A stretch of 64,000 nt of DNA from Solidesulfovibrio carbinolicus (GTDB lineage: Bacteria > Desulfobacterota > Desulfovibrionia > Desulfovibrionales > Desulfovibrionaceae), in contig NZ_CP026539.1 of assembly GCF_004135975.1 (NCBI RefSeq), positions 1-64,000 of the forward strand, in the 5' to 3' direction. Shown here piece after piece: positions 9,661 to 45,211 of the stretch. A model generated the notes under the pieces. The model did not search any database and was not told the origin of the DNA. It saw only the letters and a list, made by a program, of their open reading frames with translations. The position numbers and the translations under genes were made by a program. Numbering within the stretch: position 1 is the first letter of the stretch; each line of letters begins with the position of its first letter.

Positions 9661-11161
9661 GGCGAGTCTCCTGCAGCAGTTTGTCATAACGGGAGCAATC
9701 GGCCACCGGCTCCTGGTTGAGCATCAGTTTTTGCGGCAGGACGACCACCGCCTCCTCAGGACGTTTCCCCTCTTGGGAAAGCAGGCTGAGCACCACGTCC
9801 TTACTGACGGTGTTTGCGGCCAACGCCCTGCCGCAGGCATCGGCCACGGCGAGCAAGCCATATTGCGGTACCGCGCACAGAATGGCCACGAACTGACGAT
9901 CCCAGTCCGAAAACCGGGAAAGCGCCTCGCGCATGCGGGTCAGCTCCGGCGGCAAATCCCAGTGTTGAAACGGTGCGCCATTGCGCAACGCACCGGGTTT
10001 ACGCTGCAGCACCGGCAGATAGTGCCAAGGATCGAACATCGTCTTGCCTCGGCCGAACTGACGGTCATAGAAAGCTATCGCCTTGCCCTGACTGATGATT
10101 TTTATCTTGTCTGCATAAGCGCGAACAGTGACGGTCCGACCGACCTCGCTGACAGGGACGCTGTAGTGGTTGCGATCGTAGCGCACCAGGGATGTGCGTG
10201 AAACGCGAGCTTCATCGGCGGCATACCCGTCGAAGGGACGGGGGACCGCCAGGAGATGCCGTCGTTCCTCGGCAAACACCTCCATTATCAGCTTGTCCTG
10301 CTGGGTCGGATGGCGACGGGTTCGGGCCTGTTCGAGACACTTTTCGCGCAGGATTTCATTGAGTTCCACAAAATCCTTTGCAGCCAGTCGAGGCGTGAAG
10401 AACTGTTCCCGGACCAGGCCGACCTGCCGTTCCACTTGGCCTTTCTCCCAACCGGCGGCAGGCGTACAGGCCACCGGCTCAAACAGGTAGTGGGAACAGA
10501 GCTGTTCAAAGCGCTCGTTGAAGTCTCGATCTTTGCCGATAAGGATCTTCTTCACGGCCGTCTTCATGTTGTCGTAAATGCCGCGCCTCGTTACGCCACC
10601 AAAAAACTCGAAAGCCCGCATGTGAGCGTCGAAAACCATCTCTTGGGTTTCTCGAGGGTAGGCGACGACAAAACACATCCGGCTGTAGCAGAGCCGGACA
10701 TGCGCCACCTTCACCCGCGCCGGCAATCCGCCAAGCAGGACGTCCTCATGGCTCCAATCGAATTGAAACGCTTCTCCAGGCGAGAAAACCAGGGGAACAA
10801 AAGCTTGATTCGTCAAGAGTTGCTGTTCACGTCGCCATGCTCTGACGTAGCGTTGAACATTGTCGTAGGAACCAGCGTAACCTTCTTGCTTGATCTCCTC
10901 GTAAAGTCGCTTTGCAGAACGACGCTGTCTTTGTGGAAGATTTTTATCCTCCTCGAGGCGTTTTTCCAAAGAAGGAACAAACGCGCCAAGCATGGGCCTT
11001 GGCTGGATACGGCGTTCGTAGTGCAGCTTAATAACATCCTCTCGGAGGATCTTCCGAACGGTATTCTTGGATAACCTCAGTTCTCGTGCGATCTGTTTAA
11101 TGGATTTTCCATCTCGTCGCGCCGCCAGCCGGACCTTTTTGATCGTCTCCACTATCAGCAT
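9650..11161 (-). CDS. istA: IS21 IstA transposase
   Basis: A DDE transposase of the IS21 family, about 503 aa from the ATG at 11161 ([20 protein letters not shown]). It has an N-terminal HTH ([19 protein letters not shown]), an integrase-core domain beginning at [11 protein letters not shown] (first catalytic Asp), [10 protein letters not shown] (second Asp region), and the [10 protein letters not shown] motif carrying the catalytic Glu, then a C-terminal domain. Full length. A truncated identical copy lies at 48100-48865. Confidence 0.95.
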
Positions 11162-11280
11162 CTCCTCGTGGTACCCCTTGTGCCTCTGGTGATCCAAGAC
11201 ATCTAAGGGGGCTGCCGAGGGGGTCAATTTTCGACGCTGATTTCGCCCTCAATGGGGTCAATATTCCATGCTGGTAGACA

Positions 11281-11353
11281 TCTCGGCTTAGCCGGCAAAC
11301 CCTCATAGCCCGTAGACGGACCGCCGTGAAGGTGGGGCCGCCTTGGCGCTTAC
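11281..11353 (-). mobile_element. 73-bp IS66-type end fragment
   Basis: On the minus strand it begins GTAAGCGCCAAGGCGG, the GTAA-type start of IS66 termini, and matches 37902-37974 over 73 bp with two mismatches. It abuts the IS21 right end on one side and an IS5-family end on the other. The family is assigned from the terminus only. Confidence 0.6.
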
Positions 11354-11545
11354 CTTTCAACCTAAAAAAAGCCGTTCTAAAGGCTGCATGCTGAGGATAA
11401 GTGCCTCCTTTGGCGGCGAAAGCAGCCAAAGGAGGTGATAAATCGCCTGAGATCGGCGGAAAATCACGCAAAACTGCCGATCTTCCCCTCGAAAAAGACC
11501 AGAAAGACGGAATTCAGGGACCTCAAAGAATTGTGCAGTGGTCTC
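11354..11545 (+). mobile_element. IS5-family element end fragment
   Basis: About 190 bp that match, as reverse complement, the left end of the complete IS5-type element at 60410-61680: the last codons of its transposase (FNLKKAVLKAAC), the noncoding tail, and the terminus ending TGTGCAGTGGTCTC at 11545. The rest of the element is missing; the break at 11353/11354 is an IS66-type end. Confidence 0.85.
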
Positions 11546-11727
11546 AGAGAGGGCAACTGTTTGGATTTGTTAGTCAGTGATATTTTGCTTGATTTCTCGT
11601 ATGCTTTTTTTCATGATAACAGAGCCTACCCTATGAATCTGGCTCCAGGCCTTTGTGAAATTTCCTCTTGCATGATATTTGTTCTTTGAAAACGGCATGT
11701 TGAGTGGCAGGATGTTGTAAAAACTAC
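11546..11727. other. AT-rich spacer, no gene seen
   Basis: No coding signal recognised between the IS5 terminus and the IS1182 relic. Confidence 0.5.
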
Positions 11728-13010
11728 AACTTTTGGAACAACGCTACGAACAAACTCCTCCTGCTGCCCGCCCCAACCTAGACAACTGGCTTCACCAGGA
11801 GTACTTGCTTGGACCATTTTTTATATAGTTGATACCCTTGATCTAAAGCCGTGCCTTCATCGGTTTCGCGACAATGGCCAGAGCAGTGCAGCCTTCATTC
11901 GACTTCTCAAGATCGTGCTCTACACTTAATGCGTAATTGTTCCCTCCAGTTGCAAAATTCCCAGGCAGTCTTTGATGAGGTCGCCTTCCGGTGGTTGTTG
12001 GCCAACAGCTGCCCCGACTTCCGGACCATCGCTACGTTTCGTCGCGAGCACCTTGAGAATATCAAGTCGTTGTTCTTCAATATGTTCTCATGTGCATACA
12101 GGCCGGGATGGTCAGGGTTAGGATCGTGACTCTAGGTTGGAGCCGATGCCGCCTTGGATCGAACTGGACCTGGAAAAATCTTGCCGAGCAGGACAAGTCG
12201 CTTTTTGCCGAGGTGGAGTCCCTGCTTTGGCGCGCCGAGAATACCGCCAAGGGCGTTACGGCTCATGGGCGTCTTAGCTCTGATTCAGTGCGTCAAGGCT
12301 GAATTTGATGCCAGACAAGGGAACGGACCAGGGAGTAGGAAGCCACTTTCAAGGAGAGAGAACAAAAAGAGCTGGAGGTCGACAATAACAAGTGAAAGAC
12401 CAAATCACTAGATGAGAACTGGAGAACGCGCACAAGGCCCAACTGACGGCCCCGGAACGGCAGATTATGAAGACGCACAAGGGGTTCATATAAGGGTGCA
12501 ACGTCTAGGCCATGGTGAGTTAAGACCGGATTATGGTGGCTTTTAACCTAGTGCAAGAGCACAACGACTTCGGCCAATTGGCGTCGATGGTAGAATCGGC
12601 CAAGGGAAACCTATACGATATCCGTGAGAAATAGGGTAGTCAACTGACCGATACAGGTTATTACAGCGAGGATAATCTGGGGAGCCTGTCAGGTCCGAGT
12701 TGCCCGGTCCGTACGTTGCCGCGAAGCAAGGTCATAAGTAGCGGGTGGAAGTCGAACCTTAGCTCAGGAGCCGGCTCCAAAAAATCTGACTCGCCGGCAG
12801 CACATCGAGCGTAAGTTCATGACTAGAGTGGGCAAGAAGATGTATAAGCTCCGGGGCAGGTCGTGGAAGCAGTATTCGGCTAAGCCAAGGACTGCCTGGG
12901 CTTGCCCGGTTCCTTCTGTGCGAGTTGGCCAAGGTAAAGGGAGTATTAAACCCTGGTGCCTGCCCCATACCTGCTCAAGCTTTAACAGGTATGAACTCGC
13001 TGTCGGGTAG
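11728..13010 (+). pseudogene. Deeply eroded IS1182-family transposase
   Basis: Pieces of an IS1182-type DDE transposase appear in order but in different frames with many stops: NLDNWLHQEYLL (N-terminus, about 11780); VAFRWLLANSCPDFRTIATF and RREHLENIKSLFFNMFS (about 11980-12090); CIQAGMVR and NLAEQDKSLFAEVESLLWRA (12090-12240); RQIMKTHKGFI (12460); NLVQEHNDFGQLASMVE (12545-12600); TGYYSEDNLGSL (12655-12690); MTRVGKKMYKLRGR (12818-12860); and a C-terminal LAKVKG-like remnant (about 12930). No full frame survives, so this is one of the oldest insertions in the window. Family assignment rests on motif order recognised by eye. Confidence 0.7.
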
Positions 13011-13338
13011 ACATCGAAACGGAGGAATCGACCCGATTGCTCCGTAAATAACGATCTAGAATCCATGACTGCACGGCACGAGAGCCCGAGCGGCCCTTAT
13101 AGTTTTTTGGAGATGGACACGAAAATGGGATCGTCGCTGAATGGGTGAACAACCTTCGTGAGACAGGCTCAACAAGCAACGCATCGCTTTATTTAAAGCC
13201 TATCTGCATCGACAGGAGGCTGGTTCAATAAGCCGGAAACTACCAGAAGGGAGCCCCGGACAGCACGACATGACGGGGGCACTTGCGTTCCACGAAGTTT
13301 TGAAAACTGCGGAAATTTGTACCGCTACGAAAGGAATC
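13011..13338. other. Leader of the glycan operon, no gene seen
   Basis: No supported gene. An in-frame ATG at 13270 would extend the epimerase by 23 residues, but those residues do not resemble the family. AAAGGA at about 13329 is the ribosome-binding site for the ATG at 13339. Confidence 0.5.
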
Positions 13339-14349
13339 ATGAACATTCTTGTTACTGGCGCGGCTGGATTTATCGGATTTCATCTTTGCCGTCGCTTCCT
13401 CTCCCTCGGTTACGCCGTCACCGGCCTCGATAACCTGAGCAACTATTATTCGGTCACACTCAAAAAAGACCGGCTGGCTCTGCTGGAGCCCAACGCGAAA
13501 TTTTCTTTCGTTCAAGCCGACATGGCCGACCGTCAGGCCATGGATCGGCTCTTTAACGCCGGCGGCTTCACTCATGTGGTGAACCTTGCCGCCCAGGCTG
13601 GCGTCCGCCATAGTCTGACGCACCCTGATGACTACATCAACGCCAATATTCTCGGATACTTCAATATCCTCGAGAACTGTCGTCAGCACAAGGTCGGGCA
13701 TTTTGTTTTCGCCTCTTCGAGTTCCGTCTACGGTTTGAATACGAAGATGCCCTTTTCCATCCACGACAATGTGGACCATCCAATAAGCCTCTACGCGGCC
13801 TCGAAGAAGTCCAACGAGCTGATGGCTCACTCCTACAGCTACCTTTTCGGCCTGCCCTGTACTGGACTTCGTTTTTTCACAGTCTACGGTCCTTGGGGCC
13901 GGCCCGACATGGCACTGTTTCTGTTCACCAAGGCGATTTTGGAGAATAAGCCTATCCAGGTCTTCAACCATGGCAAGATGGAACGGGATTTTACCTACAT
14001 AGACGACATTGTTGAAGGTGTGGTCAGGGTTACGCAAAATGCGGCTGTGCCGAACACGGCCTGGAATCCCGCCGCGCCCGACCCGGGGTCCAGCACGGCT
14101 CCGTACCGGCTCTATAACATCGGTAATAACAACAGCGTCACGCTGATTCGTTTCGTCGCGGCTATCGAAGACGCCGTAGGCAAGAAGGCCCTCATGGAAA
14201 TGTTACCGCTACAGCCGGGCGATGTGCCGGCCACCCGGGCAGATGTAAACGATCTGATCCAAGATGTCGGATTTCGACCCGGCACGGACATTGAGACGGG
14301 CATCGCCCATTTCGTTGCATGGTATCTGGAGTATTACGACCTGAATTGA
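13339..14349 (+). CDS. NAD-dependent nucleotide-sugar epimerase, UDP-glucuronate 4-epimerase type
   Basis: An extended SDR enzyme of 336 aa from the ATG at 13339. The Rossmann glycine motif GAAGFIG is at 7-13, the catalytic SSSVYG serine near 130, and YAASK at 152-156. The NLAAQAGVRHSL and GPWGRPDMALFLFTKAIL segments are characteristic of the CapI/LspL-type UDP-glucuronate 4-epimerases that supply UDP-galacturonate. It is first in a same-strand run of glycan genes; 290 bp separate it from the GT2 gene. A uronic acid product would fit the AsnB-type enzymes downstream, which could convert a uronate to a uronamide (inference). Confidence 0.88.
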   Translation: MNILVTGAAGFIGFHLCRRFLSLGYAVTGLDNLSNYYSVTLKKDRLALLEPNAKFSFVQADMADRQAMDRLFNAGGFTHVVNLAAQAGVRHSLTHPDDYINANILGYFNILENCRQHKVGHFVFASSSSVYGLNTKMPFSIHDNVDHPISLYAASKKSNELMAHSYSYLFGLPCTGLRFFTVYGPWGRPDMALFLFTKAILENKPIQVFNHGKMERDFTYIDDIVEGVVRVTQNAAVPNTAWNPAAPDPGSSTAPYRLYNIGNNNSVTLIRFVAAIEDAVGKKALMEMLPLQPGDVPATRADVNDLIQDVGFRPGTDIETGIAHFVAWYLEYYDLN

Positions 14350-14638
14350 TTGCTTGGAACACGGTAAAATGACCGTCAAACCTGTCGGCCCGAACGGTTG
14401 CGTTCCGAGTTGGGATAATAAACTGCACAGCGACGATCTCAGCCAAACGCCTCCTGGTAGTCACTTCATTGCCGACCGTTTATAGCTCGTTCCAAGGCGT
14501 TGAATATTTGGGCAGAAAAGACAGAAGACCGTTTGCCAACGCGCCTCTGGTCTTTAGACCAAACATGTAACTCGCTTGCTGCCAGTAAGCATAAGTAAAA
14601 CAGGGAGCGTTCGTCCTGGCGGACGTCAAGGATTTCTC
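14350..14638. other. Spacer between epimerase and GT2
   Basis: No gene recognised. It contains a small perfect palindrome TGGTCTTTAGACCA (about 14546-14559) that lacks a following T run. AAGGA before 14639 is the GT2 ribosome-binding site. Confidence 0.45.
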
Positions 14639-15700
14639 ATGCTTCATGGAAAAACAGTCGCGGTCGTTATCCCAGCCTATCAAGAGGCCCAGCAAATACT
14701 GAAGGTCGTGCGCGCCCTGCCCGCTTTCGTGGACAAGATCGTCGTGGTCGACGACTGTTCCAGCGACGGGACGTCCGAGGTGGTCTTGCGTTTCATGGAG
14801 CAGCACCCCGAAACGAGCGTGCTGCCCATGGCCGTCAAAAGCCGAAAGACCCCGTCCACGGCCGAGGCCGAGGCGAAGATGATTCCGGCGGACGTGCTCA
14901 GCCCGGACCCCCTGCGCGACCGCATCATTTTGCTGCGCAACGTCCAAAACGGCGGCGTCGGCGCGGCGGTGGCCCGGGGGTATCTGTGGTGCCGGGAACA
15001 TCGCATCGCCTGCGCCGCCGTCATGAACGGCGACGCCCAGATGGACCCCGAGGAACTGGAGTCGATTTGCGGCCCGGTCGTCGACGACGGCGTGGATTAC
15101 GTCAAAGGCAACCGGCTGATCCACCGTTCGGCCTGGCTCGTCATTCCCAAGGTCCGCTACATCGGGAACTCCATCCTGTCGCTGCTGACCAAGATCGCTT
15201 CGGGCTACTGGCGCATCTCCGACACCCAGACCGGCTACACGGCCATTTCGCTTAAAGCCATGGATGCCTTGCGCCTTGAAGATATTTACAAAAGCTACGG
15301 CATGCCCAACGACATGCTCGTAAAACTCAACATTGCCTATTGTACGATTCGGGAAATCGAAATAACGCCACTGTATAATGTTGGCGAACAGTCAAAAATG
15401 AACATTATGCGCGTCATACCGCGCATCAGCGCCCTGCTTGTAAAGTCATTTTTCAAAAGACTATATATAAAGTATTTTTTCAGGGATTTTCACCCGCTGT
15501 TCATTCTTTACCACCTTTCCTTCTTTCTCCTGCTTGTCGATATCCCCGTTCTGCTGGAATTGTGTTCCAGAACGGTCAACGGCGGACCGTACCCCATATC
15601 CCTTTTGGCCCTTTTGGCCGTGCTGTCCATCAGTGGCTTCCAGTCCCTGATTTTTGCCATGTGGATGGATATTCTCGACAACGAACGGCTTTACAAGTGA
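14639..15700 (+). CDS. GT2-family glycosyltransferase with C-terminal membrane helices
   Basis: 353 aa from the ATG at 14639 (ribosome-binding site AAGGA). It has a GT-A fold with VAVVIPAYQEAQQI at the N-terminus, VVVDDCSSDGTS, and the metal/nucleotide motif GDAQMD near residue 132. The C-terminus has two hydrophobic helices (about 275-300 and 315-340). This layout resembles polyprenyl-phosphate glycosyltransferases that charge a lipid carrier with a sugar. It could initiate a repeat unit or make a lipid-linked donor. A 27-bp gap to the following fusion gene suggests one transcript. An upstream in-frame start at 14576 is less likely. Confidence 0.85.
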   Translation: MLHGKTVAVVIPAYQEAQQILKVVRALPAFVDKIVVVDDCSSDGTSEVVLRFMEQHPETSVLPMAVKSRKTPSTAEAEAKMIPADVLSPDPLRDRIILLRNVQNGGVGAAVARGYLWCREHRIACAAVMNGDAQMDPEELESICGPVVDDGVDYVKGNRLIHRSAWLVIPKVRYIGNSILSLLTKIASGYWRISDTQTGYTAISLKAMDALRLEDIYKSYGMPNDMLVKLNIAYCTIREIEITPLYNVGEQSKMNIMRVIPRISALLVKSFFKRLYIKYFFRDFHPLFILYHLSFFLLLVDIPVLLELCSRTVNGGPYPISLLALLAVLSISGFQSLIFAMWMDILDNERLYK

Positions 15701-15727
15701 CCCCCTTTGGTCCTGGAAGGATGATCC

Positions 15728-17692
15728 ATGTGCGGGATTTTCGGTTTCGTCGCGCGGCCTGACAGTACGCTTGGACAAGAGCAGGCGCGAAAGGCTCTGC
15801 AAACCCTGGTTCGCCTGTCGGAACGCCGGGGACGGGAGGCCTCCGGTCTGGCCGCCCGTCTGGATGACCGGATCTGGCTGCACAAAGCGCCGCTGACCGC
15901 CTCCCGCCTGCTGACCCGGCCCGAGGTCACCACGTTTCTGGATGCGGCCATCCCCGAGGCGTTCCCGCAGGCCCAAGGCTCCCTGCGGGCCATCATCGGC
16001 CATGCCCGTCTGACCACCAACGGTTTCCAGGGCATCCGGGGCAACAACCAGCCCGTGGCCGCCGGCGGCGTGGTCGGCATCCACAACGGCATCATCGTCA
16101 ACGTCGACACCCTGTGGCGCGCCCATCCCGAACTGACCCGCCACACCGACGTCGACACGGAATTGTTCATGGCCCTGCTCGGCGATCGCCTGGGGAAAGG
16201 GGAATCCCTGGCCGACGCCCTGTCCGGGGTCTACGGGGAGATCGAGGGCTCGGCCTCGGTGGCCCTGCTGTTCGAAGACCGCGACGCCCTGGCCCTGGCC
16301 TCCAATACCGGTTCCCTCCACGTCTGCCTGGCCGACGACCGGCGGTTGGCCTTTTTTGCTTCCGAAGGCCCCTTTCTTGACGGCTTGCTGGCCGAAAAAG
16401 CCATCGCCGACGCCCTGGGGGGGCACACCGTGCGCCAGGTCGCGGCCGGACAGGCCCTGGCCCTGGACCTCGCCAGCCTGGAGCCGACCTGGTTCGGCCT
16501 GGACCGGGATTCCCGGACCGGACCGGAGATCCATGTCCGCTCGCGTCCCGTCGCCCTCTTCGACACCATCGAGGCCGAGGAAGAAGCCCGCCGTTCACTG
16601 CCCCGCTGCACCCGCTGCATTTTGCCCGAGACCATGCCGTACATCGAGTTCGACGAACAAGGCGTGTGCAACTACTGCCACGGCTACAAGCCCATCGAAC
16701 GGTTGGGACGCCCCGCCCTGGAACGGGTGGTTCGCGGCTTCAAGCCCGGGGCCACGGCCGATTGCGTGGTGGCCTTCAGCGGCGGGCGCGACAGCAGCTA
16801 TTGCCTGCATTACGCCGTCAAGGAACTGGGGCTGCGCTGCATCGCCTACACCTACGACTGGGGCATGGTGAACGACCTGGCCCGGCGCAATCAGGCCCGG
16901 GTCACGGGCAAGCTCGGCGTGGAACACATCATCATTTCCGCCGACATCAAGCGCAAGCGCCGCAACATCCGCATGAACGTCGAGGCCTGGCTGCGCAAAC
17001 CCGACCTGGGGCTCATTCCGCTCTTCATGGCCGGGGACAAGCAATTCTTTTACTGGGCCAACGTGCTCAAAAAGGAAACGGGCATCGAAAATTCCATCTG
17101 GGCCGAGAACCAGTTGGAGCGGACCCACTTCAAGGTCGGATTTTGCCGCATTGCTTCAGGCAATTGCAAGAAGCGGATCTATAAAATGTCCGCCGCCGAC
17201 CGCATGCGGCTGGCGGCCTATTACAGCAAAAACTTCCTCAAAAATCCGGCCTACTTGAATTCTTCGATCCTGGACACCATCACCTCGTATATTTCCTACT
17301 ACGTCATCCCCCACGACTATACGTGGTTTTACGATTACGTGGGCTGGGAAGAAAACAGCGTCAACGACATCCTGTTTAATCAATACGACTGGGAGCTTGA
17401 TCCGGAATCGACCACGACCTGGCGTATCGGCGATGGAACGGCCGCCTTTTACAATTTCATCTACTACACCGTGGCCGGGTTCACCGAGAACGACACCTTC
17501 CGCAGCAACCAGATCCGTGAGGGGCAAATCACCAGGGAACGCGCCCTGGCCCTGGCAGCCGAGGAAAACCGTCCCCGGTACCAGGGAATCATGAACTATT
17601 GCCAACTCATCGGCGTGGATTTCGACATGGCGCTCAGCGCCATTAACGCCATGCCCAAACTCTACCCCCTCTCCCGGGAGCGGACCGCGTGA
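15728..17692 (+). CDS. Fusion: class II glutaminase plus WbpG/PseA-type N-acetyl-sugar amidotransferase
   Basis: 654 aa in two domains. Residues 1 to about 285 form an Ntn-type glutamine amidotransferase: catalytic Cys2 after the start Met (MCGIFGF), RGREASGLA, GHARLTTNG, and VVGIHNGIIVN. From about 290 there is a sugar amidotransferase/PP-loop ATPase: CTRC (294/297) and CNYC (314/317) forming a probable metal site, the ATP pyrophosphatase loop SGGRDSS at about 351-357, and FCRIASGNCKKRI. WbpG/PseA relatives use ammonia to amidinate acetamido sugars, and WbpG normally gets it from a separate class I glutaminase (HisH2). Here a class II glutaminase is built in. The ribosome-binding site AAGGATGATCC fixes the start. 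Part of the 14.6-24 kb operon. Domain calls are strong; the sugar substrate is unknown. Confidence 0.88.
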   Translation: MCGIFGFVARPDSTLGQEQARKALQTLVRLSERRGREASGLAARLDDRIWLHKAPLTASRLLTRPEVTTFLDAAIPEAFPQAQGSLRAIIGHARLTTNGFQGIRGNNQPVAAGGVVGIHNGIIVNVDTLWRAHPELTRHTDVDTELFMALLGDRLGKGESLADALSGVYGEIEGSASVALLFEDRDALALASNTGSLHVCLADDRRLAFFASEGPFLDGLLAEKAIADALGGHTVRQVAAGQALALDLASLEPTWFGLDRDSRTGPEIHVRSRPVALFDTIEAEEEARRSLPRCTRCILPETMPYIEFDEQGVCNYCHGYKPIERLGRPALERVVRGFKPGATADCVVAFSGGRDSSYCLHYAVKELGLRCIAYTYDWGMVNDLARRNQARVTGKLGVEHIIISADIKRKRRNIRMNVEAWLRKPDLGLIPLFMAGDKQFFYWANVLKKETGIENSIWAENQLERTHFKVGFCRIASGNCKKRIYKMSAADRMRLAAYYSKNFLKNPAYLNSSILDTITSYISYYVIPHDYTWFYDYVGWEENSVNDILFNQYDWELDPESTTTWRIGDGTAAFYNFIYYTVAGFTENDTFRSNQIREGQITRERALALAAEENRPRYQGIMNYCQLIGVDFDMALSAINAMPKLYPLSRERTA

Positions 17693-17735: not shown

Positions 17736-19640
17736 GTGTGCGGCATAGCCGGCATTCTTTGCAACACGCCCGGACGCCTGGGCGGCGAACTTGGCCGCAT
17801 GACCAGGGCCATGCGCCACCGGGGACCCGACGGCCAGGGGCACGTGGCCCTGCGCCCCGGCCGCAGACGGCTCGCCCCGGCCACGGCAGGCCTGCCCGAC
17901 GAGGAAGCCGAGGTCTTCTTGGGCCATCGCCGCCTGGCGATTATTGATCTCCAGGGGACGGCCCAGCCGCTGTGCAATGAAAACGGCGCGGTTTGGACGG
18001 TCTTTAACGGCGAAATCTACAATTACCGGGAGCTGCGCCGGGAACTGGCCAGCCAAGGCCATGTCCTGCGGGAAAAGGGCGATACCGAAGTGCTCGTCCA
18101 CCTGTGGGAACGCCTGGGCGAAGCCCTGCCCGCCGCCCTTAACGGCATGTTCGCCTTGGCCGTCTACGACGTGGACCGGGACACGCTGTTCCTGGCTCGG
18201 GACAGGTTTGGCGAAAAACCCCTCTACTATTGGGAAAGCCGCGACGGCTTCGCCTTCGCCTCGGAGCTCGCCGCCCTGGCCCTGCTGGAGGGGTTCCCCC
18301 GCGACGCCCTGGACGAAGCTGCGGCGTCCCGTTTTTTTGCCACGGGCTACGTGCCCCATCCCGACACGATTTACGCCGCCGCCCGGTGCCTGCCGCCGGG
18401 ACATGTCCTCGTGCGCCGGGGCGGGCGCACGGTGGTCAAGCCCTACTGGCGTCCCGACGTCCGGGGAGATGTCGACGCCTGCGATCTGGACGCCCTGGAA
18501 GACGCCCTGGACGAAGCCGTGCGCTCGCGCCTGGAAGCCGACGTGCCGGTGGGCTGCTTCCTGTCCGCCGGCCTCGACTCCTCGCTGATCGCCGCCTCCA
18601 TGGCCAAGCGAGGCAAGCCGCTGACCTTCACCATCGCTTCGGGGCACTGGGACGGCGACGAATCCCCCACGGCCAGGCGCATCGCCGCCCACCTGGGGAC
18701 CGAACACCATGAATTCCGGGTCGAGCCGGACTTTGTCGCCGTGGCCGAAAAGCTGGCCTGGCATTACGGCCAGCCTTTCGCCGACTATTCCGCCGTGCCG
18801 ACCTACTACGTCAGCCGGGAGACGCGCCGCCGCGTCAAGGTGGCCTTGTCGGGCGACGGCGGGGACGAGCTGTTCGCCGGCTACGAACGCTACGGCAACG
18901 CCTGGGCCGCGTCGTTGTGCGGGCTGTTGCCGGAACCGGGCCGCAGCCTGGCCGCCGCCCTGGCCGGACGCTTTCCCGGGGGCGACTTCGGCACGCATTT
19001 GGCCGACTTTCTGCGCGTGGCCGGCCCCATCCCGGTCCGGCTGGAAACGCCGTCCACCTTTTACCATCCCTATTGGCGGGAACGTTGTTTCACGCCCGCC
19101 TTCCTGTCTGGCGGCGGAACCGCGCCCGGCCCCGGCCCGGCCCGCTACGCCGCCGCCGCCGGCCAGGACGCGCGCAGCCGCTTTCTGGAGACCGACCAAG
19201 CTCTGTACCTGCCCGCCGACATCCTGACCAAGGTCGATATCGCCTCCATGAGCGTTTCCCTGGAAACCCGCGCGCCCTTTCTGGACCACCGGCTGGTGGA
19301 AATGGTCAACCGGATGGCCTTTGGCCGCAAGCGCCAAGGCGCCGTCGGCAAGCTCCCGCTTCGGGCCCTGGCCGCCCGTCGGCTGCCGCCGGACGTGGCC
19401 GGCCTGCCGAAGCGGGGCTTTACCCTGCCCCTGGCCGGCTGGATGCGCCGGGAGCTTCGGGACTGGAGCCATGCCGCCCTGTTCGACGCGCCCGAAGCCT
19501 GGGAAGCTTTTTTGTGCCCCCAGGCCGTGTCCCGGCTGTGGGAGGAGCATCAATCCGGCTGGGCCGACCACGCCCTGCGCCTGTGGTCGGTGATCGCCTG
19601 GGGGCTGTGGCGTCGCACGGTCGGCCAGGAGGCCGCCTGA
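17736..19640 (+). CDS. asnB: Asparagine-synthase-like amidotransferase
   Basis: A 634-aa AsnB-type enzyme. The GTG start is required because the catalytic Cys must be residue 2 (M-C-G-I-A). The N-terminal glutaminase domain shows MRHRGPDGQGH, NGEIYNYRELR and ARDRFGEKPLYYW. The C-terminal synthetase domain has the PP-loop SAGLDSS at about 277 (Ala replaces the usual second Gly), LSGDGGDELFAGYERY, and LPADILTKVDIASMSVSLET. In polysaccharide loci such enzymes often amidate uronic acids rather than aspartate. Its TGA overlaps the ATG of the next glycosyltransferase by one base, so the two are translationally coupled. A long antisense frame opposite it is a GC artefact. Confidence 0.9.
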   Translation: MCGIAGILCNTPGRLGGELGRMTRAMRHRGPDGQGHVALRPGRRRLAPATAGLPDEEAEVFLGHRRLAIIDLQGTAQPLCNENGAVWTVFNGEIYNYRELRRELASQGHVLREKGDTEVLVHLWERLGEALPAALNGMFALAVYDVDRDTLFLARDRFGEKPLYYWESRDGFAFASELAALALLEGFPRDALDEAAASRFFATGYVPHPDTIYAAARCLPPGHVLVRRGGRTVVKPYWRPDVRGDVDACDLDALEDALDEAVRSRLEADVPVGCFLSAGLDSSLIAASMAKRGKPLTFTIASGHWDGDESPTARRIAAHLGTEHHEFRVEPDFVAVAEKLAWHYGQPFADYSAVPTYYVSRETRRRVKVALSGDGGDELFAGYERYGNAWAASLCGLLPEPGRSLAAALAGRFPGGDFGTHLADFLRVAGPIPVRLETPSTFYHPYWRERCFTPAFLSGGGTAPGPGPARYAAAAGQDARSRFLETDQALYLPADILTKVDIASMSVSLETRAPFLDHRLVEMVNRMAFGRKRQGAVGKLPLRALAARRLPPDVAGLPKRGFTLPLAGWMRRELRDWSHAALFDAPEAWEAFLCPQAVSRLWEEHQSGWADHALRLWSVIAWGLWRRTVGQEAA

Positions 19641-20706: not shown

Positions 20707-22548
20707 ATGTGCGGGATCTGCGGCAGTTATCGGCCGTCGGGGGCGACGCCCCACGACGCAAGGCTCGTGGCGGCCATGAACGACGTTTTGCGCCATCGCG
20801 GCCCGGACGACGAAGGCCTGTTTCAGGGCCGGCAATGCGTGCTTGGCCACCGTCGCCTGTCCATCATCGACCTGTCCCGCGACGGCCGCCAGCCCATGGC
20901 CTCTCCCGACGGCCGCTACCAGCTGGTGTTTAACGGCGAAATCTACAATTACATCGAACTGCGCCAGGAACTCGAAGCGGCCGGCGACGTCTTTCGGACC
21001 AAGACCGACACCGAGGTGTTGCTGGCCGCCTACAGACGCTTTGGCCCCGACTGCCTCCACCGCCTCAACGGCATGTTCGCCTTCGCCGTCCACGACACGG
21101 CGGCGGGCACGCTTTTCCTGGCCAGGGACCGGTTCGGGGTCAAGCCGCTCTACTATACGACCGCGCCGGGGGTGACGCGCTTTGCCTCGGAGATCAAGGC
21201 CCTGCTCCTGGATCCCGCCGTCTCGCGCGCCGTCAACGAACAGAGCTTGTTCGAATATCTCGTCTTTAACCGCACCGACATTCAGGACGAAACGTTTCTG
21301 GCCGACGTCACGCGCCTGCCCAAGGGCTGTTACGCCCTGTGCGACGCCCAGGGCCTGCGCGTTTGCCGCTGGTGGTCGCCGTTGGACCACCTCGACAAGC
21401 ACGCCGACGTGGACGAACAGGAAGCCGCCCGGACGGTGGAAGAGCTGCTGGTCTCGGCCGTGGCCCTTCGCATGCGCAGCGACGTGCCCGTGGGCGTTTG
21501 TCTCAGCGGCGGCCTCGACTCCTCGGTGATCCTGGGCATCGTCTACGCCCACCATGACCCCGGCGAGGCTTTTCAGGCCTTCAGCGCCGTTTTCCCGGGC
21601 CATCCCCTGGATGAGAGCGGCTTCGTGGACGCTCTGGCCGCGCGCTATCCCTTCTGCGGTCGCCGCACCAGCCCCAGCGCGGCCGACGCCCTGGACCAGG
21701 CCGCCTCCCTGGCCTGGACCCTGGATGAACCCACCACGGGCTTTTCCTTTTTCGCCCAGCACGAAGTGATGCGCCTGGCCAAGGCCTGCGGCGTGGTGGT
21801 GCTGCTCGACGGCCAGGGGGGCGACGAAGGTTTCGCCGGCTACCAATACCTGCACGGCTTCAACTTGCGGCGGCTGTGGAAGCAGGGTCGGTTCGGGGAA
21901 CTGGGCCTGGAGCTGCTGCGGGTGGTGGCCCGACGCCAGGAACGGGCGGCCCTGGAGACCTTTGCCTATCTGAGCCTGCCCCGGGCCGTGCGCGCCCGGC
22001 TGCTGCTCGCGGCCACCCCGTGCGTGCGCCGGGATTTTTTCTGGGCACACCTCGGGCGCAGCCTCATCGAACGGGATTTCTTCACGGCCGACAGCCTCAA
22101 CATGGGGCTGGCCCGGCATTTCCAATACAAGCTTGAGCATCTGCTGCGCACCGAGGACCGCAATTCCATGGCCTTTTCGCTGGAGACCCGCCTGCCCTAC
22201 CTGGATTACCGGTTGGTGGAATACCTCCTGGGCCTGCCCGACGCCCACAAGCTGCGCCGGGGCGAAACCAAGGTGCTGCAAAAACGCGCCGTCGGCCGCT
22301 ACAGCCTGCCGGAAATCGTTGCGCGTAAGGACAAGATCGGCTTCGCCGCCCCGGGGGACGTCTGGTTGCGCGCCCCGGCCTGGCAGCGGCTGGCCGCAGA
22401 CTCCTACGCTTTTCTTGCCGCCCGCTTTCCCGGCGTGTTCACGCCGGCCGGCCCCAAGCCGGGCCAGGCGGATCTGAGCTATAAACATGTGCAGACCGCC
22501 GCCTGGCTGTCCGCCCTCGCCGCCTGGCCCACGGTGTCCGCCGAGTGA
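20707..22548 (+). CDS. asnB: Asparagine-synthase-like amidotransferase
   Basis: A 613-aa second AsnB-type enzyme of the operon, not a close duplicate of the first. Cys2 of MCGICGSYRP is the glutaminase nucleophile; RHRGPDDEG, NGEIYNYIELR and ARDRFGVKPLYY follow. The PP-loop LSGGLDSSV starts near residue 266. The acceptor-site region reads LLDGQGGDEGFAGYQYL, where classical enzymes have SGDGGDE, a change that may alter specificity. RTEDRNSMAFSLETRLPYLD closes the synthetase domain. The ribosome-binding site is GGAGCGG, 17 bp after the GT stop. Likely role: amide formation on a polysaccharide sugar or amino-acid substituent. Confidence 0.9.
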   Translation: MCGICGSYRPSGATPHDARLVAAMNDVLRHRGPDDEGLFQGRQCVLGHRRLSIIDLSRDGRQPMASPDGRYQLVFNGEIYNYIELRQELEAAGDVFRTKTDTEVLLAAYRRFGPDCLHRLNGMFAFAVHDTAAGTLFLARDRFGVKPLYYTTAPGVTRFASEIKALLLDPAVSRAVNEQSLFEYLVFNRTDIQDETFLADVTRLPKGCYALCDAQGLRVCRWWSPLDHLDKHADVDEQEAARTVEELLVSAVALRMRSDVPVGVCLSGGLDSSVILGIVYAHHDPGEAFQAFSAVFPGHPLDESGFVDALAARYPFCGRRTSPSAADALDQAASLAWTLDEPTTGFSFFAQHEVMRLAKACGVVVLLDGQGGDEGFAGYQYLHGFNLRRLWKQGRFGELGLELLRVVARRQERAALETFAYLSLPRAVRARLLLAATPCVRRDFFWAHLGRSLIERDFFTADSLNMGLARHFQYKLEHLLRTEDRNSMAFSLETRLPYLDYRLVEYLLGLPDAHKLRRGETKVLQKRAVGRYSLPEIVARKDKIGFAAPGDVWLRAPAWQRLAADSYAFLAARFPGVFTPAGPKPGQADLSYKHVQTAAWLSALAAWPTVSAE

Positions 22549-22613: not shown

Positions 22614-24047
22614 ATGCATGAGTCGCCGCTTGGCCGGCCGGCCGTCATGGCCGTAGCCGCCCTGATCCTTTTTGGCGCGCTGGCCCTGGCCGCAGAAAAA
22701 ATCCCCCTGGCCAACTCCCTTGGCTACGACGGCCTGGCCTATGCGGAAATCACTCGGGGATTCGACAGAATCCTCAATGGAACCTGGCGGCTTGATCCGC
22801 TGTACTACAACCGTTTTCTGCCGTCGCTGCTGTGTCGTCTGACGCTGCTGGGCCTGGGCCTGGAACTCACCGACAAGGCCATTGTCGGTTTCTACACCTG
22901 GTACAACGTCCTGCTGGCCGCCGCCGCCGCCGGCCTCTGGGCGGCCGCCGCCCGCTGTTCGGGCTTTTCGTTGCGCGCCGGATGGTTCGGTTTCGTGGCC
23001 CTTTTTTGCGGCCACGCCATGCTCAAATACAACGTCTACTATGCGTCCCTGACTGATGTGACGGCGTTTACCCTGGGCTGCCTCATGTTGTGGGCCTATT
23101 TGCAGCGCCGCGACGCGGTCCTGGCCCTGGCCGCCCTGGCCGGTGCCGCCACCTGGCCAACGCTCTTGCCCCAAGGCGGGCTGCTGTTGCTTTTCCCCCG
23201 CCGTCCCATCGCCTCCGAGCCGGCGCCGGCCAAGGCCTGGCTGCTGGCCACGGCCGTCACGGCCGTCGCCACGTGGCGCTTCATCCAGCTTGGCCGCTCG
23301 GCCGCCGACGGGGCCGTCGCGCCGTGGGCCGGCGGCATTATCGTCATCCTGTATTGTCTGCTGGCCCTGCGCTATCTGGCCGACGCCAAGGCCTTTTATT
23401 CCCCTCGGGCGCTGTTGGCCTGCACCAGCCCGACGCGACTGCTGCTGGCTCTCGGATGCGGTCTGGCGGCGACCCTGGTGTTGCTGCGCGTTACCGGCAC
23501 CTCCGTGCGTTTTTTCGAGCAAGCCGAAGGGTACCTGCTGACGTCCGTCTCTTGGGGATTGCGGTTTCCCGGGGAATTCATCGTCAGCCACACGCTCTAC
23601 TTTGGCCCCTGGCTGCTGTTGTTGTTGTTGCTTTTCCCGCGCGCTGCGGCGTTTGCCCGGGAAGGCGGGCTTGGCCTAACGCTGGTTTGCGCCATGACCG
23701 TCGCCCAGTCCCTGACGCCGCTTTCCCGCCAATTGATTGCGGCGACGCCTTTTTTATGTTGGTTGTGCCTTCAGGCCATGGAAAAGCCGCCCGTCTTGAC
23801 GCCCCGGGCCTGGACGTGGCTGGCCGTGCTGTGCCTGTTTATTTCCAAGGGCTGGATGCGATTTAGCGCCAACCCGGCCGATCCGCTAGGGAGTTTTTCG
23901 TTTCCCTGGTACGTCAGCAGCACGGGCTGTTGGATGCCCTTTCCTTTCTACTGGACCCAGGGATTGCTCGTTTTCGGACTGTTGCTATTTTTTGCCTGGC
24001 GGCTGCACGCGGCGCGGCGTCAGGCTCCAGTCACTACAAGACTGTAA
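22614..24047 (+). CDS. Polytopic membrane protein, unknown function
   Basis: About 477 aa from the ATG at 22614 (GGAG about 10 bp upstream); a GTG at 22545 overlapping the asnB stop is an alternative. It is very hydrophobic with roughly ten predicted membrane helices. Near the N-terminus SLGYDGLAYAEITRGF and LDPLYYNRFLPSLL form a periplasmic-loop pattern seen in GT-C-like or polysaccharide-locus membrane proteins (the Asp in GYDG is suggestive). I do not recognise a named family. Position between asnB and the DUF354 gene suggests a role in glycan assembly at the membrane. Confidence 0.7.
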   Translation: MHESPLGRPAVMAVAALILFGALALAAEKIPLANSLGYDGLAYAEITRGFDRILNGTWRLDPLYYNRFLPSLLCRLTLLGLGLELTDKAIVGFYTWYNVLLAAAAAGLWAAAARCSGFSLRAGWFGFVALFCGHAMLKYNVYYASLTDVTAFTLGCLMLWAYLQRRDAVLALAALAGAATWPTLLPQGGLLLLFPRRPIASEPAPAKAWLLATAVTAVATWRFIQLGRSAADGAVAPWAGGIIVILYCLLALRYLADAKAFYSPRALLACTSPTRLLLALGCGLAATLVLLRVTGTSVRFFEQAEGYLLTSVSWGLRFPGEFIVSHTLYFGPWLLLLLLLFPRAAAFAREGGLGLTLVCAMTVAQSLTPLSRQLIAATPFLCWLCLQAMEKPPVLTPRAWTWLAVLCLFISKGWMRFSANPADPLGSFSFPWYVSSTGCWMPFPFYWTQGLLVFGLLLFFAWRLHAARRQAPVTTRL

Positions 24048-24060
24048 GGGGATGCGACCC

Positions 24061-25123
24061 ATGCGTATCGCGCTTTCCATCGAACATCCGGCCTGGGCCT
24101 ACCAATTTCGCCATCTTGTCGCCTTGTTGCGCCAACACGGGCATGACGTCCGCCTGCTGGCCATCGACAAAGACCACAGCTACGCCCTGCTCGACGCCTT
24201 CGGCTATGCCTACGACCGGATCGCGCCCACCACGGGCGTGGGGGTGGTGCAAAAGGGCTGGCTCTTCTTCTTAACTACTGTGCGGATGTACTGGGTGTTA
24301 CGCCGCTACCGCCCCGACGTGCTGCTGGGGCGGGCTTCGCCGATGCTTGCCGTGTGCGCTTTTTTCCTGCGTATCCCGCACATCCTGTTCGAGGATACCG
24401 AACACTCGCGGTTTTCCTTGTTCTTTTGTCAGCTGTTTTCCACCGCCATCATCACGCCGCAGTCCTTTACGCGCGACCTCGGTCCCAAACAGATACGCCA
24501 GCCGATTTACAAGGAACTGTTCTACCTGCACCCGTCTGTCTTCAGGCCAGACGTCGCCGCCGTGGCCGAACAGGGACTGAACCCGGACCGGCCCTTTGTG
24601 CTGTTGCGTTTCGTGGCCTGGACGGCCAGCCATGATTTCGGGCTACAAGGCCTGTCGCCACAGGAACAGTTGGGCATTGTCGAGCAGCTTTCACAGGTAG
24701 CCCAGGTTGTGGTCTCCTGTGAAGGAGAGTTGCCACAACAGCTGACCCAGTACGCTTATCGTCTGCCCGTTTCGCGTATGCATCATTTGTTGGCCCATGC
24801 CGCCCTGTACGTGGGAGAAGGTGCTACCATGGCCTCGGAAGCCTCAGTGCTTTGGCGTCCACTCAGTGTACCTTAACCCTCTACCTCTGGGCTATCTGGC
24901 CGAACAGGAAAAACGTTTCGGTCTTGTGCGGTCTTTTGGCGGTCCCAGGCGCTACGCCCAGGGCCTCGCAGCAGCACTAGAAATGCTGGCCGACCCTGAA
25001 CTCGAGTCCAAAGGACGCGCGAAGGGAAGACAGCTGCTGGAGGCCAGCGAGGATCCCAATCCAATGTTTCTGCGTTTGGCCTTGGACACCGTTAGTTCGC
25101 CAGCCGCACGACAAAGGCCCTGA
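24061..25123 (+). pseudogene. DUF354-type (UDP-GlcNAc 2-epimerase-like) protein with one frameshift
   Basis: The first frame (24061-24876) begins MRIALSIEHPAWAYQFRHLV and runs to GEGATMASEASVL, then stops. The continuation NPLPLGYLAEQEKRFGLVRS lies one frame over and runs to 25123. Removing one T from the TTT at 24851-24853 joins them into about 353 aa, the usual DUF354 length. The family has a GT-B/epimerase-like fold and is found in polysaccharide loci; its reaction is not firmly known. The gap to the upstream gene is 13 bp. Either a real inactivating mutation or a sequencing error. Confidence 0.8.
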
Positions 25124-37997: not shown

Positions 37998-38149
37998 GTA
38001 AGCGCTCAATAAGGCGCGTCTTGTCAGGGCGAGCAGGATAAGCTCAGGCAGGTATGATGAGGCTTTGAGGAACGCTGTACTGTAAGCGCTCAATAAGGCG
38101 CGTCTTGTCAGGGCGAGCAGGAAGCGGCAGAAGCTCAGGCAGGGATGAT
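37998..38149. repeat. Tandem duplicate of an IS66 left end
   Basis: Two copies, starting at 37998 and 38082 (84 bp apart), of a unit beginning GTAAGCGCTCAATAAGGCGC and continuing through GGGCGAGCAGGA and GCTCAGGCAGG. The second copy is the left end of the IS66 element whose tnpC ends at 38135; the first is an extra terminus. Confidence 0.8.
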
Positions 38150-39512
38150 CAGGGAGCAGGGCTCGAGATGTTGGGGCAGGAGGGCCTTGCGTTGGGCATC
38201 GGTAGTTGCCGCCGGCAAGTGCTCGAAGAGGTAGCGTAGATAGTGATATGGCTCCAGGCCATTGGCCTTGGCGGTCTCGATGAGGGTGTACAGAGTGGCC
38301 GAGGCGTCGGCTCCGCGCGGATGGCCTGAGAACAACCAGTTCTTGCGGCCCACGGCAAAGGGGCGGATGGCGTTCTCAGCCAGGTTGTTGTCCGGGCGCA
38401 GCCGGCCGTCCTCCAGGTACACGACCAGCCGGTCCCACTGCTTGAGGGCATAGCTGACGGCCTTGCCAAGCAGACTCTTGGGCGGGGTGGTGGCGACGCG
38501 AGCATCAAGCAGCGCCTTGAGCTTGTCCAAGATCGGGCTGGATTTTTCGGCTCGTAGCGCTTTGATTTGCTCCGGCGCAAGCTTTTGCTTTTCGGCTTGG
38601 CGCTCCACACCGTAGAGCTTGCCGATCAGGTCCAGGACGGCATGGGCCGTGCCCCCCGCAGCCTTTTTGCCGGTAGTCTTCTCGACCTCGACAAATTTTC
38701 GCCGGACATGGGCCATGCAGCCGAGATGGCGGATGCCTTCCCGTTCGCCCAGGGCCTCGTAGCCGCTATATCCGTCGGTCTGCAGATAACCTTGGAAGTT
38801 TCCAAGGATTTCTGCGGCCACACAGCCGGCCCGAGTCGGGTGATAGCGAAAGAGCACGACCGGTTTTCCCGGCGTTCCGCCCCGGGCGACCCACATGAAG
38901 GATTTCGTGGTATTGGCCCGGCCCGGTTCGGCAAGCACCTGGACTGTTGTCTCGTCCATGTTGACGAGAGGGCCGGAACGAATCTCCTCAATGATCAGGT
39001 CGATGAGCGGATCACAGGCCTTGGCTACCCGGATCATCCAGCCGGCCAGGGTTCCCCGGGAGATGTCCAGCCCCAGGCGGGCGAACTGATCTTCCTGGCG
39101 GTAGAGGGGAAGCGCGTCGGCGTATTTGGCGATCGCCACATGGGCCAAAAGGCCCGGGGTGACGATGCCCTGGGGAATGAGCTGGAGCGGCATGGGCGCG
39201 GTTTTCACCGTCGGCCCGTCATCTTCCACGCCTTCGCAGGCCCGGCAGGCGTACTTTGGCCGGATGTGGCGGATGACCTGGATCTTGGCCGGCTCGATGT
39301 CGAGTTTTTCGGAAACTTCCTCGCCGATGCGGACCAGCTCAGCGCCGCAAGGGCAGGCCTTCTCCGATTCCGGCAGGTCGTGGATAATTTCGACCCGGGG
39401 CAGGTCGGCGGGGATGGGGCGGCGTCCGCGCTTGCGGCGGGTGTGGGCCGGGGCGCAGACCTCTTCGAAGGTCTGCGACTTTTGCTCCTCCGCCGTCTGC
39501 TCGGCCTCGTCG
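38135..39512 (-). pseudogene. tnpC: IS66 tnpC, 3' part (separated from 5' part by Tn3)
   Basis: About 459 codons of the IS66 DDE transposase: CPCGAELVRIGEEVSEKLDI zinc-binding region, LVNMDETTVQVL (catalytic Asp), GYSGYEAL (second Asp region), and RPDNNLAENAIRPFAVGRKN (catalytic Glu). The N-terminal 64 residues lie at 47084-47277, beyond the transposon. Joining the two parts after removing one AACAA copy gives exactly 524 codons in one frame, so only the insertion inactivates it. Confidence 0.9.
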
Positions 39513-39550
39513 AACAAGGGGTCACCTCAGAAAACGGAAAATAAAGCACG

Positions 39551-42121
39551 CTAAGCCGGTTTCAGTGGGCGTAGCGGCCTGAACTTACCCGCGCCGATTT
39601 TGGCGCTGCTGCGCCACAGGTAATCACCGGTCAGGTTGATGTGCTCCCAGCCCAGCGGCGACAGGTACTGCAATAGGGCGTCATCGATCATCAGGCCATG
39701 GCCGCGCAAGGCGTTCGCCGCCCGTTCCAGATAGACCGTGTTCCACAGTACGATGGCGGCTGTCACCAGGTTGAGGCCGCTGGCCCGGTAGCGCTGTTGC
39801 TCGAAACTCCGGTCGCGAATTTCTCCTAGGCGGTTGAAGAAGACCGCCCTGGCCAGCGCATTGCGAGCCTCGCCCTTGTTCAGCCCGGCATGCACTCGGC
39901 GGCGCAACTCCACGCTTTGCAACCAGTCCAGGATGAACAGGGTTCGCTCGAAACGGCCCAGTTCACGGAGCGCCACGGCCAGTCCGTTCTGGCGCGGGTA
40001 ACTGCCGAGCTTGCGCAGCATCAGGGATGCTGTCACCGTACCTTGTCTGATCGAGGTGGCCAGCCGCAAGATTTCGTCCCAATGGGAGCGAACGTGCTTG
40101 ATGTTGAGTGTGCCGCCGATCATAGGTTTCAGCGCGTCATAGGCGTAGTCGCCCTTCGGGATGTAGAGCTTGGTGTCGCCCAGGTCGCGGATGCGCGGCG
40201 CAAAGCGGAAGCCCAGCAGATGCATGAGGGCGAAGACGTGATCGGTGAAGCCTGCCGTATCGGTGTAGTGCTCCTCGATGCGCAAATCGGATTCGTGGTA
40301 TAGCAGGCCGTCAAGCACGTAGGTTGAGTCGCGCACGCCTACGTTTACGACCTTGATGTGGAACGGTGTATACTGGTCGGAGATATGGGTGTAGAATGTC
40401 CGTCCTGGGCTGCTGCCATATTTCGGGTTGATGTGGCCTGTGTTCTCGGCCTTGCTCCCGGTTCGGAAGTTCTGGCCGTCCGATGATGATGTGGTGCCGT
40501 CGCCCCAATGTTCGGCAAAGGGATGCCGGAACTGGGCATTGACCAGCTCGGCCAGCGCCGTCGAGTAGGTTTCGTCGCGGATGTGCCAGGCTTGCAGCCA
40601 AGCCAGCTTGGCGTAAGTTGTACCGGGGCAGGACTCGACCATCTTGGTCAGGCCCAGGTTGATCGCGTCGGCCAAGATGGTTGTCAGCAGCAGATCCTTG
40701 TCCTTAGCCCGGTTGCCCGATTTCAGGTGGGTGAAGTGGCTGGTGAAGCCCGTCCACGCGTCCACCTCCAGCAGCAGTTCGGTGATCTTGACGTGCGGCA
40801 GGATCATCGTCGTCTGGTCGAGCAGGGCCTGCGCAGTATCGGGCACCGCCGCATCGAGTGGCGTGATCTTCAAGCCCGACTCGGTGATGATGGCATCCGG
40901 CAGGTCGTTGGCCAGCGCCATGCGGTTGACCGTAGCGAGTTGCGTTTCCAGCAGCGTGAGCCGGTCGTGCAGGTACTGGTCGCAGTCGGCAGCTACGGCC
41001 AGCGGCAATTCACTGGCCTGCATGAGGCTGGCGAATTTCTCCGGTGGCACCAGGTAATCCTCGAAGTCCTTAAATTGACGCGACCCCTGCACCCAGATGT
41101 CGCCGGCACGCAGCGAGTTCTTCAACTCCGACAGTGCGCACAGTTCGTAGTAACGCCGGTCGATGCCGGCATCGGTCATCACCAGCTTTTGCCAGCGCGG
41201 CTTGATGAAATCGGTCGGAGCATCGGCGGGCACCTTGCGGGCGTTGTCGGTGTTCATGGCGCGCAGCACCTCGATGGCATTGAGCACGTTCCTGGCTGCG
41301 GGCGCGGCCCGCAGCTTGAGCACGGCGAAAAATTCCGGCGCGTAGCGGCGTAGCGTGGCGTAGCTCTCGCTGATGCGATGTAGGAAATCGAAGTCCTCGG
41401 GCTGCGCGAGCTTCTGCGCCTCGTTGACGCTCTCGGCGAAGGCGTCCCAGGGCATGACAGCCTCGATGGCGGCAAAGGGATCGCCGCCGTTTTGCTTGGC
41501 TTCGATCAGGGCCTGGCCGATGCGGCCGAACAAGCGTACCTTGGCATTGATCGACTTGCCGGCTGCCTGGAATTGCTGCTGATGCTTGTTTTTGGCGGCG
41601 TTGAACAGCTTGCCAAGGATGCGGTCGTGCAGATCGATGATCTCGTCGGTGACGGTCGCCATGCCCTCGATGGCTAGCGCCACCAGAGTGGCGTAACGAC
41701 GCTGCGGCTCGAATTTGGCCAAGTCGGCGGGCGTCATCTGGCCGCCCTCGCGGGCGATTTTGAGCAGCCGATTTTGATGAACCAGCCGCTCGATGCCCGA
41801 AGGCAGGCCGAGCGCCTGCCAGGCTTTGAGGCGCTCGATGTGTTCGAGCATGCACCGAGAGTTCGGCTTGGCCGGTGACTGGCGCAGCCAGGCGAGCCAA
41901 GTCGTCTTGCCGTTGTCGCGGCGCATGAGCAGGCCATCGAGACAACGGTGATGCGCGTCCGACAGAGGCTCGGCCAAGGCTTTGTAGATGTGCCGGTTGG
42001 CGCGGGTGATCGCCTCGGCGCTGGCACGCTCGACGGCGTTGAGGGCAGGCAGAATGATTGATTGCCGCCGCAGGTGTTCGATCAAGGCGCTGGCCAGCAC
42101 GATGCCCTTGTCGGTCTGCAT
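39551..42121 (-). pseudogene. tnpA: Tn3-family TnpA, 3' part (outer transposon)
   Basis: The C-terminal 855 or so codons of a Tn21-like transposase, including [20 protein letters not shown] (catalytic Asp region), [20 protein letters not shown], and [19 protein letters not shown] near the end. The first 134 residues are at 45923-46323. Joined after removal of the inner transposon and one TGCAT copy, the frame is 989 codons, the full family length. The 3' end lies within the terminal inverted repeat. Confidence 0.93.
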
Positions 42122-42152
42122 GGGGTAAACCCAACATTCGTGTCACCAGGTA

Positions 42153-45110: not shown

Positions 45111-45211
45111 AAAAACCTCCGGATTGTGCACATTGAACTCTACCCAGAATGATACACAAGGCGAGCCACGCCCCACAAGGATTCCCAGGCCGCAAAATCC
45201 GAGAGGTTCAA
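45111..45211. promoter_or_regulatory. Divergent tnpA/recombinase control region (inner Tn)
   Basis: The short region between the divergent starts. In Tn3 elements this is where the resolution site and both promoters lie; no individual subsite was assigned. Confidence 0.45.

Follow-up and report, generated by a model that had tools for sequence, protein, structure and literature searches.

A fused class II glutaminase/N-acetyl-sugar-amidotransferase (NASAT)-like protein is encoded in the window (the whole 64,000-nucleotide stretch of DNA analyzed), and is a widespread, apparently uncharacterized form of an established enzyme type. The fusion is probably (approximately 0.68) a self-contained glutamine-dependent sugar amidotransferase that would use internal ammonia and yield an amidine-sugar product. 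The NASAT family includes WbpG of Pseudomonas aeruginosa O5 and WbuX of Escherichia coli O145. Like these, the fusion has an SGGxDS PP-loop, a CxxC...[GN]xCxxC motif, conserved C-terminal arginines and a location in a polysaccharide gene cluster. However, the known members stand alone, mostly beside HisH/HisF-like genes, whereas the fusion carries its own class II glutaminase. It also differs in having SGGRDS rather than SGGKDS, in belonging to a separate clade, and in scoring below the cut-off of the NCBIfam family TIGR03573.

The start codon of the fusion is fixed, because an in-frame stop codon adjoins the ATG immediately 5' (the open frame is 655 amino acids) and a ribosome-binding-like motif precedes it (Table 1). 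The cysteine is therefore residue 2, and N-terminal once the methionine is removed. A chance frame or misassembly was rejected, as homologues with 41-52% identity span residue 1 to approximately 646 with both halves in frame. An assembly artefact was also rejected, given that at least 80 genomes contain relatives of full length.

Table 1. Features of the fusion gene and its neighbors (window positions, all on the + strand).
Feature	Position	Strand	Evidence
NAD-dependent sugar epimerase/dehydratase, same gene string	13270..14349	+	PF01370
GT2 (DPM1-like) glycosyltransferase, 27 bp upstream of fusion	14576..15700	+	PF00535
Ribosome-binding-like motif GGAAGGA	15715-15721	+	Sequence, 6 bases before fusion ATG
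Fused class II glutaminase/N-acetyl-sugar-amidotransferase-like enzyme, 654 aa	15728..17692	+	ATG-started ORF, Pfam/NCBIfam, full-length homologues, AlphaFold
Class II (Ntn) glutaminase domain, about residues 1-262	15728..16513	+	GATase_6/7, invariant residues
NASAT (WbuX-like) domain, residues 289-646	16592..17665	+	TIGR03573 (4e-31); 8wex by sequence and fold
Tetracysteine CTRC-x16-CNYC, residues 294-317	16607..16678	+	Regular expression, 70/70
PP-loop SGGRDS, residues 351-356	16778..16795	+	Invariant in 70 relatives
AsnB-type amidotransferase adjoining fusion	17736..19640	+	PF00733 (2.7e-88)
Second AsnB-type amidotransferase of cluster	20707..22548	+	PF00733 (2e-61)

Both halves of the protein are recognized by family models. 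Pfam GATase_6 matches residues 87-214 (45.5 bits, cut-off 27), GATase_7 matches within the same residues (29 bits, cut-off 25), and TIGR03573 (WbuX) matches residues 294-621 (E 4e-31), although its 108.7 bits are below the trusted cut-off of 203.2. Seven relatives of the fusion score 123-151 bits with TIGR03573, all likewise below that cut-off. Among PDB sequences, the Legionella NASAT (LpNASAT, 8wex) matches the C-terminal half best and is alone in spanning it. Asn_synthase (PF00733) has no match in the fusion in Pfam, whereas both neighboring AsnB-type proteins match it strongly, so the C-terminal half is not an ordinary Asn_synthase domain. This agrees with the sequence-only reading, which had described an Ntn glutaminase with Cys2, CxxC...CxxC and an SGGRDS PP-loop in one frame; the family matches, invariant residues and full-length homologues bear this out.

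Across 70 aligned fusions, invariance extends to C2, R94, N120, G121 and D143 of the glutaminase, to the zinc site (C294, C297, C314 and C317), and to the PP-loop S351-G-G-R-D-S356 (70/70). A regular expression for the tetracysteine, CxxCXn[GN]xCxxC, matches before the PP-loop in every one of the 70 relatives. This motif is the zinc site in the LpNASAT structure 8wex (PMC10607449). Judged by residue conservation, both active sites of the fusion look functional. An AlphaFold model built with 69 sequences (pLDDT 92.6, pTM 0.90) supports a predicted fixed mutual arrangement of the two domains as a single body. With this model, Foldseek matches class II glutaminases, AsnB and GFAT/GlmS among them, and the second half again matches 8wex.

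Asparagine synthetase B and the AsnB-type glycan amidotransferases share with the fusion the joining of a class II glutaminase to a PP-loop ATP pyrophosphatase, and 1ct9 ranks first by E-value among the PDB fold matches. However, the fusion is without an Asn_synthase domain and, to our knowledge, AsnB is without the tetracysteine. The sequence-only reading had proposed an AsnB-like route for the ammonia. The geometry of the fusion is probably not that of AsnB, judging from the model, and an AsnB-like arrangement is not to be assumed because superposition of the whole chain is poor (TM 0.24, rmsd about 26). A glucosamine-6-phosphate synthase (GlmS) would be expected from the public annotation of one Agrobacterium plasmid copy (WP_153763859.1, labelled "glucosamine 6-phosphate synthetase") and from the resemblance of the glutaminase half to that of GlmS. 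This identity can be given virtually no credence, being refuted by domain content: there is no match to a sugar isomerase (SIS) domain, TIGR01135 covers residues 2-213 only, and a NASAT PP-loop domain makes up the C-terminal half. A separate 690-aa frame of the window's genome (G000:C1:344060), the glutaminase part of which matches the fusion, is possibly the real GlmS.

In architecture, the nearest precedent is GAT-QueC, which joins a glutamine amidotransferase to QueC and has a role in archaeosine formamidine formation in archaea and phage 9g (PMC5485725, PMC6884629). As in the fusion, GAT-QueC of Crenarchaeota and phage 9g combines an amidotransferase domain with a PP-loop N-type ATP pyrophosphatase, and its pathway ends in an amidine. 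It differs in its C-terminal zinc motif, its nitrile substrate (preQ0) and its nucleic-acid product. That the fusion is itself a nucleobase modifier of this kind, forming a formamidine on 7-deazaguanine, seems very improbable, despite the common two-domain plan, a marginal Pfam QueC match (residues 346-407, 22.7 bits, cut-off 22), a phage contig that bears the fusion, and a best viral fold match to the 7-cyano-7-deazaguanine synthase of Pantoea phage Vid5, for which archaeosine genes are reported. The QueC C-terminal zinc motif C(x)8CxxCxxC is found in 0/70 relatives, whereas the NASAT tetracysteine precedes the PP-loop in all of them, the WbuX match covers 328 residues compared with 62 for QueC, and no preQ0 pathway gene is present among the scanned cluster genes. 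The fusion is thus a parallel case and not a member of GAT-QueC, as it lacks the QueC zinc motif and carries the NASAT tetracysteine; match length also speaks against membership.

A self-contained sugar amidotransferase would need no dedicated HisH, and gene neighborhoods are consistent with this. HisH is encoded less than 1.5 kb from the stand-alone NASAT in 52/59 loci (26/30 in the same order, 26/29 in the phylum), and within 1.5 kb of the fused gene in 0/80 listed loci (79 distinct, as L024 and L030 are one contig). The contrast is strong (Fisher 6e-31), although related loci are not independent and the neighborhood samples are therefore phylogenetically non-independent. Extending the distance to 10 kb, HisH is found at one locus (L088) among the 80 listed. 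HisF is nearby in 49/59 stand-alone NASATs compared with 1/80 listed fused loci. At the level of whole genomes, HisH was counted in 25 genomes with the fusion, eight of which also have a stand-alone NASAT. Two or three HisH are present in 5/8 of these, whereas the 17 fusion-only genomes each have one or none (more than one in 0/17). Three of the latter (G260, G268 and G270) have no HisH, in assemblies that may be incomplete. The genome from which the window comes has a single HisH above the cut-off in a family search, beside HisF on contig C1, with the fusion on contig C2. A HisH2 elsewhere in this genome was rejected as the ammonia supplier, as the only HisH above the cut-off adjoins HisF. 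The sequence-only reading had predicted both the absence of a hisH2/hisF2 partner and an enzyme that supplies its own ammonia, and these predictions are supported by the genome and neighborhood counts.

Most simply, the class II glutaminase of the fusion would take the place of HisH2/HisF2, apparently with no separate ammonia partner needed, and the comparisons give good evidence that the ammonia source is built in. Published genetic work on the usual system is in line with this: in Sphingomonas, WbuX, HisF2-type and HisH-type insertions all came from one colony-morphology screen (PMC11340318), and among the O-antigen genes of Legionella serogroup 6, hisF4, hisH2 and an LPS-biosynthesis gene adjoin one another (PMC3694923). 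The NASAT domain of the fused clade may sometimes draw on another ammonia source, because this clade also includes solitary NASAT genes that lack a glutaminase (L107, L261/L271). In the same order as the window's genome, NASAT-like domains are also found in open frames of 500-930 aa (L011, L012, L017 and L009), several of them scoring low for WbuX. The nearest separate class II glutaminase in the bacterial family is a stand-alone gene (L007:1387-2253, G026), the surroundings of which resemble, by eye, an amidoligase-type cluster.

To place the NASAT half, a tree of 80 NASAT domains, 43 of them fused, was used. All 43 fused domains fall on one side of a branch with strong support (SH-aLRT 99) and a long stem. 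The PP-loop carries Arg (SGGRDS) in 43/43 fused domains and Lys (SGGKDS) in 33/33 of the stand-alone domains compared; position 587 is Glu in the fused (E587) and Arg in 97% of stand-alone domains, and many further positions are found only in the fused ones. Both groups share R597, R603, W540, G584 and the catalytic motifs. It is well supported that the fused NASAT half works like a NASAT, but orthology to WbpG with the same product is not supported. Because of their own clade, their SGGRDS signature and, in every case scored, a value below the WbuX trusted cut-off, the fused enzymes are classed by sequence as a distinct subfamily, with an acetamidino sugar as the presumptive product. Their substrate or chemistry may differ from that of WbuX enzymes, given SGGRDS, E587 and the other fused-only positions. 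Thus, the WbpG/PseA-type (WbuX) label of the sequence-only reading stands as far as the TIGR03573 and 8wex matches go, but not as a subfamily assignment, in view of the separate clade, the distinct PP-loop and pocket signature, and the low scores. The stand-alone NASATs nearest to the fused clade (L263 and L264) have neither a class II glutaminase nor HisH in about 9 kb on each side, and an ancestral split form of the fusion was sought at these two loci with none found.

The fusion gene sits in a polysaccharide cluster, in the order sugar epimerase, GT2, fusion, AsnB-type, GT4, AsnB-type, membrane protein, glycosyltransferases, ABC-2 transporter, DegT aminotransferase and WbqC. A DPM1-like GT2 is encoded within 1.5 kb in 34/80 listed fused loci but in only 1/67 stand-alone NASAT loci, and is the most recurrent neighbor of fused genes, across phyla. 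This recurrence points to the GT2 acting on the same sugar as the fusion. No sugar-nucleotide pathway is common enough among the fused-gene neighborhoods to name the substrate. A DUF354-type glycosyltransferase-like gene in the window (23992-25123) has an apparent frameshift near position 24860, and its relatives near other fused loci are intact, at about 360 aa. Besides a ParA-like gene (41-826) and a third AsnB-type gene (49896-51818), contig C2 (132,673 bp) carries several transposons, among them IS66 (38135-39517) and two transposases of the Tn3 family (39551-45248). It is probably a plasmid or mobile region bearing the glycan cluster.

The same self-contained PP-loop enzyme might act on another target, either forming a uronamide (carboxylate to amide, as in AsnB) or using a lipid-linked or non-sugar substrate. 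The family-specific pocket positions and PP-loop Arg, the deep separate clade, and neighborhoods in which the leading partner is a DPM1-like GT2 and no sugar-nucleotide pathway dominates would all fit such a target. We consider it rather unlikely, however, as the tetracysteine and the four residues R597, R603, G584 and W540 are held in common with NASATs, and genuine AsnB-type enzymes for amide chemistry already adjoin the fusion.

Amidine formation on a sugar, as the preferred reading has it, would proceed in three steps. In the class II glutaminase, the N-terminal Cys would hydrolyze glutamine to glutamate and ammonia, as predicted by homology. The ammonia would then reach the PP-loop domain by an internal route instead of arriving from a separate HisH2/HisF2 complex. 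There, by analogy with the NASAT family, the PP-loop domain would use ATP (releasing AMP and PPi) to activate an N-acyl carbonyl of the sugar, most likely N-acetyl, and ammonia would displace the adenylate to give an amidine, for example an acetamidino sugar that would enter a surface polysaccharide. The GT2 encoded directly upstream would probably transfer or anchor the same sugar. In the sampled set, the fusion appears to have arisen once, in a NASAT lineage apart from the one served by HisH, and then to have spread across phyla. A bolder and tentative proposal is that these enzymes form a second, HisH-independent branch of sugar amidotransferases in bacteria, archaea and tailed phages, supplied by internal ammonia, which together with the DPM1-like GT2 would amidate a sugar (possibly polyprenyl-linked) unlike the known acetamidino sugars.

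The distribution of the fusion was scanned in 84,980 species genomes with a profile of three sequences. It was found in at least 80 species genomes, with nearly all listed loci matching residues 1 to approximately 646, and its carriers belong to more than a dozen phyla of bacteria and archaea, plus one phage contig. Bacterial carriers include Pseudomonadota, Bacteroidota, Chloroflexota, Planctomycetota, Myxococcota, Thermodesulfobacteriota, Omnitrophota and Patescibacteria, and archaeal carriers include Methanobacteriota and Woesearchaeota. Within the window's phylum, about 5/395 sampled genomes (its own genome counted) have the fusion, and 42/395 have a stand-alone NASAT above the cut-off. 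The fusion is thus sparse yet very widely spread. In the section on WbpG-type proteins of a 2026 survey of the QueC superfamily, these are given as 300-400 aa long, and that section makes no mention of a fusion to a class II glutaminase (PMC13329287). A search of the open literature, with subscription papers outside its scope, returned no description or characterized member of the fusion. A possibly undescribed architecture had been suggested from the sequence; this agrees with the search, but rarity is not supported, given the occurrence in many phyla.

Some copies are carried by mobile elements. Two Agrobacterium plasmids bear the fusion inside polysaccharide clusters, and a near-DNA search for the window's cluster in plasmids gave no match. 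A full-length fusion with all catalytic residues is present on a viral contig (L106:8001-9827; an identical protein is found in L105), where it is flanked by the gene for a terminase large subunit (814-2688) and by one that, by eye, probably encodes a portal (10253-12268). It shares 57% identity with the Agrobacterium plasmid copy. In tailed phages, the fusion may serve in the modification of surface glycans or of the phage DNA itself. On another viral contig, of 119 kb, the NASAT half is encoded alone (L107:7962-9074, 370 aa) in a glycan gene cluster; it belongs to the fused clade, is 71% identical to the Agrobacterium fusion, and no glutaminase half was seen with it. In a Bacteroidetes genome (L076:10001-12034, also L228), a stop codon lies exactly at the glutaminase/NASAT junction, and may be a natural split, a nonsense mutation or a sequencing error.

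Acetamidino sugars are found in O-antigens and flagellar glycans, and we know of no reconstitution that pairs a NASAT with its source of ammonia. In the paper on the LpNASAT structure, the function of the NASAT family is described as little known (PMC10607449). A single polypeptide with both activities would, if confirmed, be a simple system in which to test the reaction, its need for ATP and ammonia channelling. The misleading database name "glucosamine 6-phosphate synthetase" would be corrected, and GAT-QueC and the fusion would be two cases in which a glutaminase and a PP-loop enzyme were joined separately for amidine chemistry. The distribution of the fusion would also flag unrecognized amidinated glycans in many phyla.
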